From IMG/VR virus record IMGVR_UViG_3300034062_008079, positions 1 through 23,188 of that record: a stretch of DNA of 23,188 nucleotides. One strand, written 5' to 3'. A model generated the notes under the pieces. It had not been told where the DNA came from. It did not search any database and saw only the letters and a program-made list of their open reading frames with translations. This DNA is from a virus. The stretch's first letter is position 1; each line of letters starts with the position of its first letter. Shown here one piece after another: positions 5,056-10,569 of the stretch. Made by a program: the position numbers and the translations under genes.

Positions 5056-5904
5056 ATGATTTTGAAAGGGAAATATAAAAAACCAGCTTCCGTGTCCGAA
5101 GGGATTACGGAGGCTGGAACTCCTGACATGAAATATTATGCTTTTGATTGGGATGATAATATCATGAATATGCCAACTAAAATTATCCTAAAAAACAAAG
5201 AGGGCGATGAAGTTGGAATGTCAACAGAAGATTTTGCTCATTACAGAAGTATGATAGGTAAAGAAGACTTCCAATATGAGGGAGAGACCATTGTTGGATT
5301 CGGAGAAAATGCTTTCAGAAACTTTGGAGTGGAGGGAGATAGGAAATTTATCATCGACTCAATGACAGCACCGATTGGACCGGCATGGAATGATTTTGTT
5401 GAAGCAATAAATAATGGTTCTATATTTGCAATAATAACCGCACGAGGACATACACCTAAAGTCTTGAGAGACGCTTGTTACAATCTAATATTATCAAACA
5501 GGGATGGAATTTCATTTATGGAATTAATCAAAAACTTGGAAAAATATAGAGACATAGCAGGATTCGAAGGGAAACAAGATAAAATGGATACTTTAAATGA
5601 GTATCTTGATTTATGTAGATTTTACCCTGTTTCTTATGGTGAGGGCTCGGCGACTAGTCCCGAAGAAGGTAAAATTAAAGCAATGAAAGAATTTATCTCT
5701 TACATCAAAGAAATTTCAAACACAATTGGAAAAAAAGCATTCTTTAAAAATGATATTAGTAACAATTTTATCCCTGAACCAACATTAGGTTTTTCAGATG
5801 ATGATATAAGAAATGTTGAAACCATGAAAAAACATTTCGAGGATGAACCTGATAATATCTTACAAACCTACTCGACTGCGGGTGGAATTAAAAGAAAATA
5901 TTAA
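5056..5904 (+). CDS. HAD-superfamily phosphatase-like protein
   Basis: This 282-residue protein carries the haloacid dehalogenase motifs in order. Motif I is YYAFDWDDNIMNMPTKI, with the likely nucleophile D31 and general acid/base D33. Motif II is AIITARGHTP, with T128. A candidate motif III lysine lies near residues 206-211 (EEGKIKAMKEF). Motif IV is GFSDDDIRNVETM, with the acidic group D249-D251. All catalytic positions appear present, so an active Mg-dependent phosphohydrolase is plausible; the substrate is unknown. Position 35 is Asn where many HADs have Thr or Val. The first 24 residues precede the fold and end at an internal Met25; the upstream ATG was chosen because it follows the sheath stop by 6 nt with an A-rich leader. 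Its place between sheath and tube genes is odd, since T4 genes 18 and 19 are adjacent. The superfamily is well supported; the role is not. Confidence 0.8.
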   Translation: MILKGKYKKPASVSEGITEAGTPDMKYYAFDWDDNIMNMPTKIILKNKEGDEVGMSTEDFAHYRSMIGKEDFQYEGETIVGFGENAFRNFGVEGDRKFIIDSMTAPIGPAWNDFVEAINNGSIFAIITARGHTPKVLRDACYNLILSNRDGISFMELIKNLEKYRDIAGFEGKQDKMDTLNEYLDLCRFYPVSYGEGSATSPEEGKIKAMKEFISYIKEISNTIGKKAFFKNDISNNFIPEPTLGFSDDDIRNVETMKKHFEDEPDNILQTYSTAGGIKRKY

Positions 5905-5967: not shown

Positions 5968-6456
5968 ATGGCTGATTTACTAATGAAAATGCCCATACCG
6001 TATGAACCAAAAAGACAAAATAGGTTCATCTTGAGATTTCCATCATCTTTGGGCATAAACGAATGGTTTGTGGAATCAACTGCGAGACCACATATTACAA
6101 TTAATCCTGTTGAGATTCCTTTTCTGAACACTTCAACATACGTGGCAGGAAGATTTACTTGGGGTGTACTAAACGTAAAATTCCGTGACCCAATCGGACC
6201 ATCCGCTTCTCAAGCACTTATGGAATGGGTACGTCTATGTGCTGAATCAGTTACAGGTCGTATGGGTTATGCTGCGGGTTACAAGAAAAATGTAGACCTA
6301 GAAATGTTAGACCCAACAGGCGTTGTTGTTGAAAAATGGATTTTGGAAGGAACATTCTTATCAGACGTTAATTTCGATTCTTTGGCATACAACACGGACG
6401 CTTTAGCATCCATTTCCGCATCGATGAGAATGGACCGTTGTATCTTAGTATACTAA
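5968..6456 (+). CDS. Tail tube protein (T4 gp19-like)
   Basis: This protein stacks as hexameric rings to form the inner tube through which DNA passes. Its 162 residues match T4 gp19 (163 residues) almost exactly. Recognisable parts are the N-terminal PYEPKRQNRFILRFPSSLG, the strand ARPHITINPVEIPFLN, the segment GVLNVKFRDPIGPSASQAL, and the C-terminal block running from LEMLDPTGVVVEKWILEG to SMRMDRCIL. This is the usual tube beta-sandwich order. The gene has its own TATTTAT motif and the same leader as the sheath gene, and is followed by a hairpin terminator, so it is probably expressed as a strong separate unit. Identification is very secure. Confidence 0.93.
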   Translation: MADLLMKMPIPYEPKRQNRFILRFPSSLGINEWFVESTARPHITINPVEIPFLNTSTYVAGRFTWGVLNVKFRDPIGPSASQALMEWVRLCAESVTGRMGYAAGYKKNVDLEMLDPTGVVVEKWILEGTFLSDVNFDSLAYNTDALASISASMRMDRCILVY

Positions 6457-6474
6457 AAAATCTTTATATATCAG

Positions 6475-6513
6475 AAAAAATCCCACACAAAAAATGTGTA
6501 AGGGATTTTTTTT
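6475..6513 (+). terminator. Rho-independent terminator after tail tube gene
   Basis: A-rich arm plus TCCC and ACACA pair with TGTGT and GGGA plus a T8 tract, leaving a small A-rich loop and a 2-nt bulge. The stem begins about 19 nt after the tube stop. Because the left arm begins with an A6 run, it could also work on the minus strand, though no minus-strand gene lies to its right. Confidence 0.85.
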
Positions 6514-6516
6514 GTT

Positions 6517-6559: not shown

Positions 6560-7318
6560 ATGGAACAAGAATTATCTAATTACGGACAGATGAATTTTAA
6601 TTTACCACATGATTTGGTACCACTCCCCTCTAATGGAGTTTTTTACAAAAATAAAAAAAAATCTGTTAAAGTGGGATACTTAACCGCCACCGATGAAAAT
6701 ATTCTTTTGAACACATCACAAGGGAATCGGGAAAGTGTTGTATTGAGTCTTTTACGTAATAAACTTTACGAATCTGATTTGAGACCTGATGAATTATTAA
6801 CAGGTGATGTTGAGGCGATTCTAATATTTTTAAGGAACACGGCATTTGGTCCTGAATACGAGGTTAGTCTTACTGACCCACAAACAGGAAAAAAATTCAG
6901 TTATACGTTGTTACTGGATGAATTAAATATAAAAAAAACAGACAATAAACCAACCGAAGATGGATTGTTTGTGGTGAAACTACCTAAGTCAGGGGATGAG
7001 GTCAAATTAAGACCATTATCATTAGCCGATAGTTTGGACATAGAAAAAATGGTTGAGTCTTATCCCACCAACAGGGTCGCCCCCAAAGTTACATGGAAAT
7101 TAAATAAACAAATAACATCTATAAATGGTGAAACAGATAAAGGTCAAATTGCAAAATATATCGAGACAATGCCGATTATGGATTCTAAATTTGTTAGAAC
7201 TTTTTTGAACCAAAATGAACCGAGATTAGATTTACAAAAAGAAGTAACCGCCCCATCAGGAGAAAAAGTGATTGTTGATATCACATTTGGGGTTGAGTTT
7301 TTTCGGCCTTTCTATTGA
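6560..7318 (+). CDS. gp26-like baseplate hub / tail assembly chaperone
   Basis: This 252-residue protein resembles the T4 gp26 (T4 baseplate protein) family. Residues 14-45 carry the hallmark NLPHDLVPLPSNGVFY followed by a strand and GYLTATDENIL. The middle region has EAILIFLRNTAFGPEYEV and a zinc-ribbon-like fold without the cysteines. The C-terminus ends in a strand and FFRPFY. The gene lies between the tail tube and tape measure genes, the position of the G-type tail assembly chaperones in many tailed phages, and it is overlapped by a second frame that looks like a T-type extension. Its stop is TGA, whereas TAA is used almost everywhere else in the window. The start is the only good ATG and follows a run of A residues without a Shine-Dalgarno. 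The family call is fairly strong; the exact role (hub component or tape-measure chaperone) is not settled by sequence alone. Confidence 0.75.
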   Translation: MEQELSNYGQMNFNLPHDLVPLPSNGVFYKNKKKSVKVGYLTATDENILLNTSQGNRESVVLSLLRNKLYESDLRPDELLTGDVEAILIFLRNTAFGPEYEVSLTDPQTGKKFSYTLLLDELNIKKTDNKPTEDGLFVVKLPKSGDEVKLRPLSLADSLDIEKMVESYPTNRVAPKVTWKLNKQITSINGETDKGQIAKYIETMPIMDSKFVRTFLNQNEPRLDLQKEVTAPSGEKVIVDITFGVEFFRPFY

Positions 7319-7466
7319 TTATAGGAAAGTTTTATCTGACGAATATTATTATTTCACAAAGTTTTTAAACGTATCTTACACAGATTTTTTATTACTACCA
7401 ACTTGGTTGCGAAAATATATGCTCGATAAACTAATCGAGGATAATACTCCCAAAAATAAAAATTAG
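7272..7466 (+). CDS. Tail assembly chaperone extension (probable frameshift product)
   Basis: This short open frame overlaps the end of the gp26-like gene by 47 nt and lies in the +1 (equivalently -2) frame relative to it. It has no ATG near its beginning; the only start-like codon is a TTG at 7272, and the first in-frame ATG lies near the very end. The meaningful peptide, from about 7305, runs GLSIDYRKVLSDEYYYFTKF then NVSYTDFLLLPTWLRKYMLD. It resembles the small proteins paired with gp26-like or gpG-like chaperones, with a helix, an aromatic-proline centre and a basic helix. Entry by frameshift at the T6-C tract 7298-7304 would give a fusion of about 301 residues. It ends in TAG, 25 nt before the tape measure start. 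Independent translation from TTG is the less likely alternative. Confidence 0.6.
   Translation: MLISHLGLSFFGLSIDYRKVLSDEYYYFTKFLNVSYTDFLLLPTWLRKYMLDKLIEDNTPKNKN
7298..7304 (+). other. Candidate programmed +1 (or -2) frameshift site
   Basis: The zero frame reads GAG TTT TTT CGG, and the overlapping frame reads TTT TTC GGC. A P-site Phe-tRNA on the second TTT (7301-7303) can slip one base forward to TTC and still pair well, while the next zero-frame codon is CGG, an uncommon Arg codon beside the prevailing AGA. A -2 slip to TTT at 7299-7301 is also possible. The zero-frame TGA follows 12 nt after the tract. A -1 slip would not reach the extension frame. Confidence 0.5.
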
Positions 7467-7491: not shown

Positions 7492-10400
7492 ATGCTCGAC
7501 GACAAAAATAAAACGGAGTCCGACAATGAAGAAGGTGGGAAAAATAAAAAGGAAAAAGGATATGTTCCAGGAACATTTGATGCGCTTAAAGAGTCCTTAA
7601 AAGACGTTAAGTCAAAAAGTGATGACGTAGGGGCAACATTCTCTACTATACAACAAGTAGTTATAGGGTTCAACAAAAACCTTGGCGGTTCCGCAGACTC
7701 GGCAGCCCTTTTAGGAACTAATTTTACCGATGCGGCTCAGAAACTTCTATTACTTGATGGTAATATAAAATCTCTTGAAGCGGGTATTGTTTCTGCTGCA
7801 GAAAAAAACTTGGAAATACAAGAGGCGACAAACCGAATGTATATCGCAAGTTCCGAAGAATTAGCCGGTATAGTTGCTTCACAACAAGCCTCAGGAGTTT
7901 TATCTAAAACCTTAATCACAAACTTCAAAGACCAAGGATATGCGTTAAGTCAAATACCGAAAACTATGGAGAAGGTGATTCAAACTTCCAGGGCTCTTGG
8001 TGTCAACGTTGCCGCGGTATCTGAATCGGTTGTTACAAATATAAGTAAACTAAATACTTTTAATTTCTCGAACGGTGTTGAAGGGCTCACTAGGATGGCT
8101 GCACAAGCGGGTATGATTGGTGTCGACATGGTAAAAATCTTCAAGATAGCTGAAGACCTTTTCGACCCCGAAAAAGCAGTTGAATTAGCGTCTTCATTAC
8201 AAAGACTTGGTGTGGCAACAGGAGATTTGATTGACCCACTTAAACTGATGGACCTCGGACAAAACAATCCACAAGAATTACAAAACCAAATTGTTGAAAT
8301 GTCAAAAAGGTTCACCTTCTTCAACGAACAGAACCAAAAATTTGAAATATTACCAGGGGCCAAAAGGGAGTTGAGAGAAATTGCTTCCGCCATGGGAATG
8401 AGTGCAGATGAACTGGCAAAAATGGCTTTAGGAAGTTCTGACCTTGCAAAGAAAATGAGTGAAATTAGATTCCCTGAATTAGGTATCGAACTGCCTGAAG
8501 ACCAAAAAACGTTGATAGCCAACATGGCAGAAATGAAGGATGGTGAATATAAAATTAAATTTGAAGAAACAAAAGAAGTTGATGGAGAAAGAGTAAAAAC
8601 AGGTAGAGTTGTTGAAAAATCTGTTGCACAATTAAACCCTGAGGACCTCGAAAGTTTGAAATATCAACAAACATTACAAGCAAAAAGTTTGGAAGATATT
8701 GCCTTGGAATCAATGGAGTTGGAAAGAAGAACCGCAAATGCTGCAGAAGCCTTAGTAAGTACAGGAAGGGGTACCTTAGCAACAAATAGATTAGCAAATA
8801 AAGGTCAAGAACTTTTATCTCACACCGTAAAAGACTTGGTAAACTTAACAAAAGAGGCTGCCACCGCTAAGGGTGGTAGAGAGTTCATGGACCAAGGGAT
8901 TAGTGACATTAAAAAATTGACTACTGATGTAATGTCAGCCATGAAAGATGGAAAAATTACTGATGAAGAAAAAAATGATTTAATGAAAGTCGGAAAAGGG
9001 TTGGACGAATTGATGCAAAAAACTATGGGTAAAGGAGGTGAAGTTTTCGAAAAACTTATTAAATACGGGCAAGACTTTCCTGGTGAAGTGGGAAAGGCGT
9101 TGAATGCAGCAACCATAGCGATAGAGAATACAGGCGAAAAAACTGAATCTGAAAAAACAAGTTCTTTAGATAATCCACAAGACAATAGACGATTGGATGC
9201 AAAAATAATGGACAGAAATTTGGACGAAAATAAAACACAAACTCAAAATATAACAACATCAAATGTAAACAACCAAACACAAAACACGCAAAATGTAAAT
9301 AATACTACAAACAAAAATGATGTAACTACAAATAATAATACGTCTAATACTACCCAATATGACCAAGTAATTTATCAAATGACACAAAGTTTACCTGAAG
9401 CCTTCAGTAATGTAAAATTACCTGATGTAAATATTGATTTAAATCCTTTAACTTCATTACAAGAAAAACAACTTACGACAAATGAAAATTCATTAACGGA
9501 ATTAAAAACAATGAACAGTACTATGAAAAGTGAAAATGAAACTTTGATTTCATACATGTCAAGAACATCTACACCAACTCAAAATCCTACTGCTTCAAAC
9601 ACAAATATTACAACAAATAATAACCCAACGGATAATTCAACTACAAATAATAATACGTCTAATACTACCCAATATGACCAAGTAATTTATCAAATGACAC
9701 AAAGTTTACCTGAAGCCTTCAGTAATGTAAAATTACCTGACGTAAATATTGATTTAAATCCTTTAACTTCATTACAAGAAAAACAACTTACGACAAATGA
9801 AAATTCATTAACGGAATTAAAAACAATGAACAGTACTATGAAAAGTGAAAATGAAACTTTGATTTCATACATGTCAAGAACATCTACACCAACTCAAAAT
9901 CCTACTGATTCAAACACAAATATTACAACAAATAATAACCCAACGGATAATTCAATTACAAATAATTCTACTGTAACAAATAATGATAACAAACAATTTG
10001 TAACAAATGATAATAAACAAACGAACACAATACAAGCGCCTTTAGCGTTACCTGAGGAACCAGTTGTATCTTCACTACAACAACTATATAACATGCCTCA
10101 AATTTTAAACGATGGTATGGTAACAGGTTTGGATAAAATATCGGCACAAAATAAAGAAAAAGATAATTTATTAATAGGTAAACTTACCGACATTACTGAT
10201 AATTTAGGACCTGTGATGCCACAAGAAACCCCCTCCAATCCTTTTTACCAACCAACAATTCCAAATAATACAATATCGCCAACTGTACAAACACCTGAAG
10301 TTGCAATGGCAACAAACACGACAACAAATAATGTTACAGAAAGAATTGTTGAATCACCAATGAATAATGTCGGGGGTACCATAGAATACAGAGGGGAGTT

Positions 10401-10569
10401 AACTCTGACAGTTAATGTAAATGCACCTGACGGAATGAATAAAGCACAAGTAGAACAATCCTTCAAAAAAATGTTACAAGATAATACTATAGCTCAAAAA
10501 ATAGAACAAAATGTAATTGGAGGTAGAGTAGGAAGTTACAATCCTACTGTGTCAGTTTTTGAGGGATAA
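7492..10569 (+). CDS. Tail tape measure protein
   Basis: This 1025-residue protein is the likely ruler that sets tail length and is threaded inside the tube. It follows the tail chaperone pair, the standard tape measure position. Residues 1-35 are charged and low-complexity. About 35-560 is largely helical and Ala/Leu-rich, with segments such as GLTRMAAQAGMIGVDMVK and ELASSLQRLGVATGDL typical of tape measure proteins. About 560-880 is an Asn/Thr/Gln-rich region that contains two near-identical 105-residue units (see the repeat). The C-terminal about 80 residues form a compact beta/alpha end (YRGELTLTVNVNAPDGMNKA). T4 gp29 has 590 residues, so this one is much longer and predicts a longer tail. 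No peptidase or transglycosylase motif was recognised. The call rests on position, composition and length. Confidence 0.8.
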   Translation: MLDDKNKTESDNEEGGKNKKEKGYVPGTFDALKESLKDVKSKSDDVGATFSTIQQVVIGFNKNLGGSADSAALLGTNFTDAAQKLLLLDGNIKSLEAGIVSAAEKNLEIQEATNRMYIASSEELAGIVASQQASGVLSKTLITNFKDQGYALSQIPKTMEKVIQTSRALGVNVAAVSESVVTNISKLNTFNFSNGVEGLTRMAAQAGMIGVDMVKIFKIAEDLFDPEKAVELASSLQRLGVATGDLIDPLKLMDLGQNNPQELQNQIVEMSKRFTFFNEQNQKFEILPGAKRELREIASAMGMSADELAKMALGSSDLAKKMSEIRFPELGIELPEDQKTLIANMAEMKDGEYKIKFEETKEVDGERVKTGRVVEKSVAQLNPEDLESLKYQQTLQAKSLEDIALESMELERRTANAAEALVSTGRGTLATNRLANKGQELLSHTVKDLVNLTKEAATAKGGREFMDQGISDIKKLTTDVMSAMKDGKITDEEKNDLMKVGKGLDELMQKTMGKGGEVFEKLIKYGQDFPGEVGKALNAATIAIENTGEKTESEKTSSLDNPQDNRRLDAKIMDRNLDENKTQTQNITTSNVNNQTQNTQNVNNTTNKNDVTTNNNTSNTTQYDQVIYQMTQSLPEAFSNVKLPDVNIDLNPLTSLQEKQLTTNENSLTELKTMNSTMKSENETLISYMSRTSTPTQNPTASNTNITTNNNPTDNSTTNNNTSNTTQYDQVIYQMTQSLPEAFSNVKLPDVNIDLNPLTSLQEKQLTTNENSLTELKTMNSTMKSENETLISYMSRTSTPTQNPTDSNTNITTNNNPTDNSITNNSTVTNNDNKQFVTNDNKQTNTIQAPLALPEEPVVSSLQQLYNMPQILNDGMVTGLDKISAQNKEKDNLLIGKLTDITDNLGPVMPQETPSNPFYQPTIPNNTISPTVQTPEVAMATNTTTNNVTERIVESPMNNVGGTIEYRGELTLTVNVNAPDGMNKAQVEQSFKKMLQDNTIAQKIEQNVIGGRVGSYNPTVSVFEG
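9324..9953 (+). repeat. 315-bp in-frame tandem duplication inside the tape measure gene
   Basis: Copy 1 covers 9324-9638 and copy 2 9639-9953. They differ at only two positions: T9426/C9741 (synonymous) and C9593/A9908 (Ala to Asp). A partial third copy continues with one mismatch to about 9966. The unit is 105 codons, so the frame is kept. It encodes an Asn/Thr-rich linker followed by a block around YDQVIYQMTQSLPEAFSNVK, a helical stretch with ENSLTELKTMNSTMK, and ISYMSRTSTP. The near-identity points to a very recent duplication or ongoing gene conversion. Confidence 0.95.

Follow-up and report, generated by a model that had tools for sequence, protein, structure and literature searches.

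The tail chaperone gene of this phage ends inside a second reading frame that has no ATG of its own, which raises the question of whether ribosomes enter that frame by a programmed shift and, if so, in which direction they slip. Within the window, by which we mean the whole stretch of 23,188 nucleotides that was analysed, the gene occupies positions 6560-7318 on the plus strand, encodes 252 amino acids and ends with the TGA codon at 7316-7318. The second frame, which is +1 (equally -2) relative to the gene, is open from 7272 to 7466 and contains no ATG ahead of a conserved peptide. When the window was re-read, the reading frames, coordinates and sequence at the chaperone gene were as the preliminary description had given them, including the overlap with the ATG-less frame. 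The assignment of the gene to the family of the T4 baseplate hub protein and chaperone gp26 was likewise borne out, with matches to PF12322 (E=5.6e-10; 39.7 bits, against a curated cut-off of 24.5) and phrog_150 (E=6e-14) and with homologues in hundreds of viral contigs. The gene therefore appears to encode a tail/baseplate-hub assembly chaperone in the role known as 'G', and it sits between a tail tube protein gene (5968-6456, plus strand; phrog_4542, E=1.7e-21) and a presumed tape measure gene (7492-10569, plus strand). The latter is identified by its position and length and by the tail tape measure annotated at the homologous position in immuto, LIS04 and SP-15; it has no family match of its own in Pfam or PHROG. 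No tRNA gene was found in the window.

The final codons of the gene, GTT GAG TTT TTT CGG CCT TTC TAT TGA, encode the C-terminus ...GVEFFRPFY and contain the proposed shift site, TTT_TTT_CGG (7298-7306, plus strand), in which TTT at 7301-7303 would occupy the P site and CGG at 7304-7306 the A site. Only 9 nt separate this site from the zero-frame stop. As had been suspected, the codon that follows the six Ts is rare, with CGG used four times in the main genes of the window (0.55 per 1000 codons). The window thus presents a UUU P-site codon followed by CGN (here TTT_CGG) near the start of the overlap, which is the arrangement of the UUU_CGN class of +1 sites. The window does not have the lambda type of arrangement, in which an X_XXY_YYZ heptamer leads into a second ORF in the -1 frame; its second ORF is in the +1 frame.

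We propose that most ribosomes translating 6560-7318 would terminate at the TGA at 7316 and release the T4-gp26-type chaperone. In a minority of ribosomes, tRNA-Phe would rest on the UUU at 7301-7303 in the P site while the rare CGG is slow to fill the A site. A one-base forward slip would then allow the tRNA to re-pair with UUC, and reading would continue through GGC CTT TCT ATT to 7463. The product would be a 301-aa G-T fusion, in which the +1-frame T domain (7305-7466, plus strand; 53 amino acids plus stop) would supply a C-terminal helical domain resembling the C-terminus of T4 gp51. If the two products act as lambda gpG and gpGT do, the short form, present in many copies, and the fusion, present in few, would together cover the tape measure protein and bring in tail-tube subunits; the ratio of fusion to short form is presumably low. 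The predicted tryptic peptides are VIVDITFGVEFFGLSIDYR for the +1 fusion, VIVDITFGVEFFFGLSIDYR for a -2 fusion and VIVDITFGVEFFRPFY for the short form.

Comparison of relatives supports this reading. An IMG/VR protein search with the gp26-family ORF returned 30 loci, and every full-length intact locus among them contains GARTTTTTTCGN, a stop within a few codons and the conserved peptide in the +1 frame. The locus L024 has a frame disruption far upstream, yet it retains the site and the +1 peptide. Profile and pattern searches expanded the collection to 246 non-redundant genes. For the comparison of frames we used 238 non-redundant loci with an assignable site, from which the group with a -1 overlap was excluded. 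In 238/238 the +1 frame runs open through the site and codes for at least 30 amino acids past the stop, and the -1 frame does so in only 7, a difference far beyond chance. Because the loci are interrelated, the counts are not independent; at 75% identity or less, about 36 lineages can be told apart. The T domain is kept in all relatives. A nucleotide search against phage and plasmid records gave no match, and a search of genome contigs found no relative.

Because the loci found by DNA pattern are biased for GGGG and TTTTTTCG, we recomputed the codon statistics on the protein-found loci only (n=55, non-redundant). The P-site codon is TTT in 55/55, the preceding codon is TTT in 54/55 and the next codon is CGN in 55/55, which indicates that the T6-C-CGG site noted in the preliminary description is conserved. 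The background in these genes is about 80% for TTT and, among Arg codons, about 15% for CGN and 0.2% for CGG; at the site, CGG occurs 48 times. Across the window clade, the A-site codon is CGN in 149 of 151 loci, with TGG and CAT in the remaining two. Stop codons behaved otherwise. The preliminary description had given weight to the TGA, which is the sole non-TAA stop in the main genes of the window, but the loci of the window clade end in TAA (77), TGA (55) or TAG (19), and because stops differ among relatives, the identity of the stop is no evidence for a shift.

Substitution patterns change frame at the same place. Upstream variability by zero-frame codon position is 0.216, 0.238 and 0.396, and downstream variability by +1-frame codon position is 0.366, 0.298 and 0.560; the third position is the most variable on both sides, and the overlap itself shows low variability. 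This switch in periodicity is the signature that would be expected where coding in frame 0 hands over to frame +1 at the site. Taken together, the conserved overlap, the fixed site, the frame switch and the relationship of both parts to T4 gp26/gp51, each obtained by comparison, suggest that a one-base forward shift very probably occurs at one defined place close to the 3' end of the chaperone gene, both in the window phage and in hundreds of its uncultured relatives. From them we infer the occurrence of the shift, its +1 direction, its efficiency and its role in assembly. A G-T fusion produced by a +1 shift at UUU_CGG in a gp26-type chaperone gene is the best explanation of the locus, and we hold it with considerable confidence.

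The same relative frame could be entered by a -2 shift, which is how phage Mu produces gpGT from its tail chaperone gene. Whereas Mu shifts on a G run, the slip here would take place on the T6 run, where tRNA-Phe can re-pair at -2 as well as at +1, and it would yield a fusion with one extra Phe (VEFFFGLSIDYR). The relatives of the window disfavour this direction. Eight non-redundant sites read TTC_TTT_C and two read TTA_TTT_AAT, and at all ten the overlap is kept while a -2 slip mismatches the middle codon base, so a slip run that allows -2 re-pairing is not common to all members. At TTC_TTT_C, moving from UUU to UUC by +1 improves the third base. In addition, a +1 shift depends on the invariant C that follows UUU and on the rare CGN codon, and a -2 shift needs neither. 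Because relatives with TTC_TTT_CGN re-pair poorly at -2, we favour +1, which narrows the direction of '+1 (or -2)' proposed earlier to its first member and makes a Mu-like shift unlikely. In a few distant relatives, for example at TTT_TTT_AGT (LIS04) and TTA_TTC_AAT, re-pairing at +1 is not clean. A sister clade that includes Flavobacterium phage immuto has TTT_TTT_TGG or TTT_CTT_TGG, and at its CTT sites pairing alone leaves room for -2.

We also considered whether the second ORF is an independent gene that begins at a TTG, a GTG or an internal +1-frame start, which we regard as improbable. One candidate, the TTG at 7272, has an SD-like AGGAG upstream at 7258-7262; most relatives have some in-frame TTG or GTG, and records of immuto, SP-15 and cyanophages list a separate short gene, which in immuto and SP-15 starts inside the T domain. 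Against independent initiation, in 46/55 loci the +1 frame is interrupted by a stop no more than 60 nt ahead of the zero-frame stop, and the fixed TTT_TTT_CGN would be left unaccounted for. The preliminary description had named a second part encoded in relatives as a gene with its own ATG as one case against a frameshift; the relatives have no conserved start codon, and in 19 of 151 window-clade loci the +1 frame lacks an ATG, GTG or TTG ahead of the conserved peptide. Because most loci contain a chance TTG or GTG, this argument draws on the minority that has none and on the variable position of these codons in the rest.

Slippage by RNA polymerase on the T run, with the loss of one T and a mixed mRNA population, could in principle act on the T6 at the site, which is T7 in one clade. 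Six Ts are short for efficient polymerase slippage, relatives with interrupted runs (TTCTTTCGN, TTTCTTTGG) retain the same +1 overlap, and the fixed CGN codon would lack an explanation, which together make slippage very improbable. A sequencing error, or a decayed gene whose second ORF is the vestige of one former gene, has nothing in its favour beyond the broken frame itself and is already contradicted by the same overlap in 238 non-redundant loci and by coding-type periodicity in the downstream +1 frame, which reduces its probability to a negligible level.

Sequence upstream of the site is also conserved. The complementary elements CCCC (7251-7254, plus strand) and GGGG (7289-7292, plus strand) could form the left and right arms of a hairpin that ends 8 nt before the P-site codon. 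CCCC is kept in 134/135 loci of a clade set that was partly found by a pattern fixing GGGG, and both CCCC and GGGG are also invariant in the protein-found loci. CCCC is retained even where the codon GCC (Ala) has become ACC (Thr), and the GGG codon of the right arm is present in 55/55 protein-found loci, compared with a background of 11%. Between the arms, TCNGGAGA is conserved, as is the element TCAGGAGA (7256-7263, plus strand), with GGA in 55/55 compared with a background of 29%. Because the paired bases never vary, covariation gives no test of CCCC/GGGG, and the pair next to it shows at most a weak covariation trend. The element may have a stimulatory role in the shift. Two other structures were considered and set aside: an inner stem within the CCCC/GGGG loop, which is weak and has no fixed register, and a stem between TCAGGAGAA and TTCTTCTGA, which single-sequence folds suggested and in which the Ser codon and the stop codon do not covary. 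An Rfam search gave no match.

The peptide encoded beyond the shift site is related to T4 gp51. T domains of two +1 clades match each other by profile (Prob 97.8, E 7e-13). When whole +1 fusions were compared with cyanophage-type fusions plus T4 gp51, the alignment extended over 273 columns and took in the T part (Prob 99.3, E 4e-20). The match to the C-terminal domain of gp51 is thus obtained through whole fusions; the T part alone is weaker against the cyanophage-type/T4 gp51 set (E 3e-4, Prob 38), and the single +1 peptide of the window had no match when compared with family profiles. PF12322 is matched by both T4 gp26 and T4 gp51, and phrog_150 stops at the end of gp26 and reaches the end of gp51; gp51 is thus a paralogue of gp26 with an extra domain.

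Structure prediction is consistent with a folded T domain. Prediction of the window fusion from its single sequence was poor (pLDDT 38.8) and was replaced by an AlphaFold2 model built on an alignment of 56 sequences headed by the fusion of L003, a relative with 82% identity (pLDDT 86.6, pTM 0.82). In this model, the +1 part forms helices at residues 254-269, 273-278 and 281-295, and the +1 peptide is confidently predicted to be a conserved three-helix domain related to the gp51 C-terminus. The best structural matches of the L003 model are gp26-family proteins, and a fold search of the PDB with the fusion model gave nothing below E 0.2. One entry in BFVD, the 430-aa viral protein A0A8S5RZL9 (Myoviridae sp. 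ctNQV2), aligns with the fusion model over 304 columns and may be a natural in-frame G-T fusion.

Another group of relatives has the second part in the -1 frame. These include S-PM2, P-SSM2, syn9, S-H68, BUCT-ZZ01 and Sinorhizobium phage phiN3, as well as Vibrio phage ValKK3, Aeromonas phage phiAS5 and Pseudoalteromonas phage XG4, and a -1 overlap is further found in Stenotrophomonas phage RAS14 and Xanthomonas phage XacN1. In most of them the shared Phe-Phe motif contains a canonical U_UUU_UUY heptamer, and XG4 has U_UUU_UUA; a -1 heptamer of the lambda type is found in the cyanophage and KVP40-like relatives. Where a short gp51 is annotated in these -1 relatives, it is given as an independent gene that begins at an internal start codon. 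The annotated short gp51 genes of cyanophage and other T4-like records, which lie next to gp26 in the -1 frame downstream of such sites, are probably mis-annotated frameshift products rather than separate genes. T4 itself encodes gp26 and gp51 in two separate full-length genes. On the simplest interpretation, the T4 lineage has its G/GT system in gp26-gp51, and T4 itself has a two-gene form like that of Bacillus phage 0305phi8-36, which has a two-gene chaperonin and no frameshift (PMC2147016). More tentatively, gp26-gp51 could be one ancient recoding gene whose direction flips by lineage at the same Phe-Phe homopolymer: cyanophages and KVP40-like phages would shift by -1 at U_UUU_UUC, the phages described here would shift by +1 at UUU_CGN or CUU_U, and T4 would have the gene split in two. 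Under this possible but doubtful scheme, +1 shifting in the window clade would be helped by a new kind of 5' RNA element, CCCC...GGGG, which ends 8 nt before the P site and would fold on leaving the ribosome and pull the mRNA forward.

The proposed system shares features with several that have been described. According to a major review, the G-T frameshift is widely conserved in long-tailed phages, T4 excepted (PMC5009743). Lambda gpG/gpGT likewise comprises a short protein and a fusion, with an overlap just before the tape measure gene (Xu, Hendrix, Duda 2004; PMC5009743), whereas the window gene would shift by +1 rather than -1, belongs to the gp26 family PF12322 and has UUU_CGN in place of a heptamer. 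In T4, the homologue of the G part is gp26, and the T domain is carried by its paralogue gp51, a protein essential for assembly whose function is not known (PMC3004832); T4 has two separate genes, whereas the window phage is proposed to have one gene with a shift. The same difference distinguishes the window phage from 0305phi8-36, where G and GT are two homologous genes (PMC2147016), as T4 gp26 and gp51 appear to be.

At the level of the shift site, the slip tetranucleotide UUU_C and the A-site CGN are those of influenza A PA-X, for which the UUU_CGN +1 shift was proved by mass spectrometry (PMC3498833), and of amalgaviruses, for which, among others, it was predicted (PMC3498833, PMC5052127). 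Those are eukaryotic RNA viruses with unrelated proteins, and we do not claim common descent. For the HF1-group haloviruses, a UUU_CGN +1 shift was proposed in the tail chaperone at a TTT-CGC site (PMC7230728), but those viruses are archaeal, and the first chaperone of HF1 has 156 aa and matches other PHROG families rather than gp26. The CUU_UGG sites of the sister clade (immuto) have CUU_U in common with bacterial prfB CUU_UGA, and CUU_U was by far the most efficient slip in a substitution study (PMC5009743); unlike prfB, the sister clade has UGG (Trp) rather than a stop in the A site and a tail gene rather than autoregulation.

We found no description of a gp26/gp51 frameshift in the literature searched, which took in a minority of subscription papers. 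Our comparison suggests that relatives of T4 have the G-T system in the form of gp26-gp51 and that T4 is a special case in which the fusion form has turned into a separate gene. Recognition of gp26-gp51 as a G/GT pair would give gp51 a concrete role, and T4-like phages would then share the two-protein trick of other long-tailed phages, frequently with a shift in the +1 direction, which is uncommon. The window clade would also provide a large natural set of UUU_CGN-class +1 sites in viruses of bacteria, for a class so far known from eukaryotic viruses and proposed in haloviruses. Between lineages, the direction of the shift in the gp26-gp51 gene appears to have switched.

Several other features were observed among the neighbouring genes. 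The presumed tape measure gene contains two direct copies of 300 nt (9317-9616 and 9632-9931) that are 98% identical and offset by 315 nt (105 codons), a recent in-frame duplication with a possible effect on tail length. A terminator-like inverted repeat with a T run behind it lies at 6478-6515, between the tail tube and gp26 genes. Between the tail sheath and tail tube genes, a 282-aa ORF (5056-5904) with YYAFDWDDN in its start region had no Pfam match and no convincing PHROG match. Finally, a 54-aa ORF with an ATG start is located on the minus strand at 1551-1715, amid the tail genes, and its sequence resembles that of a small regulatory protein.
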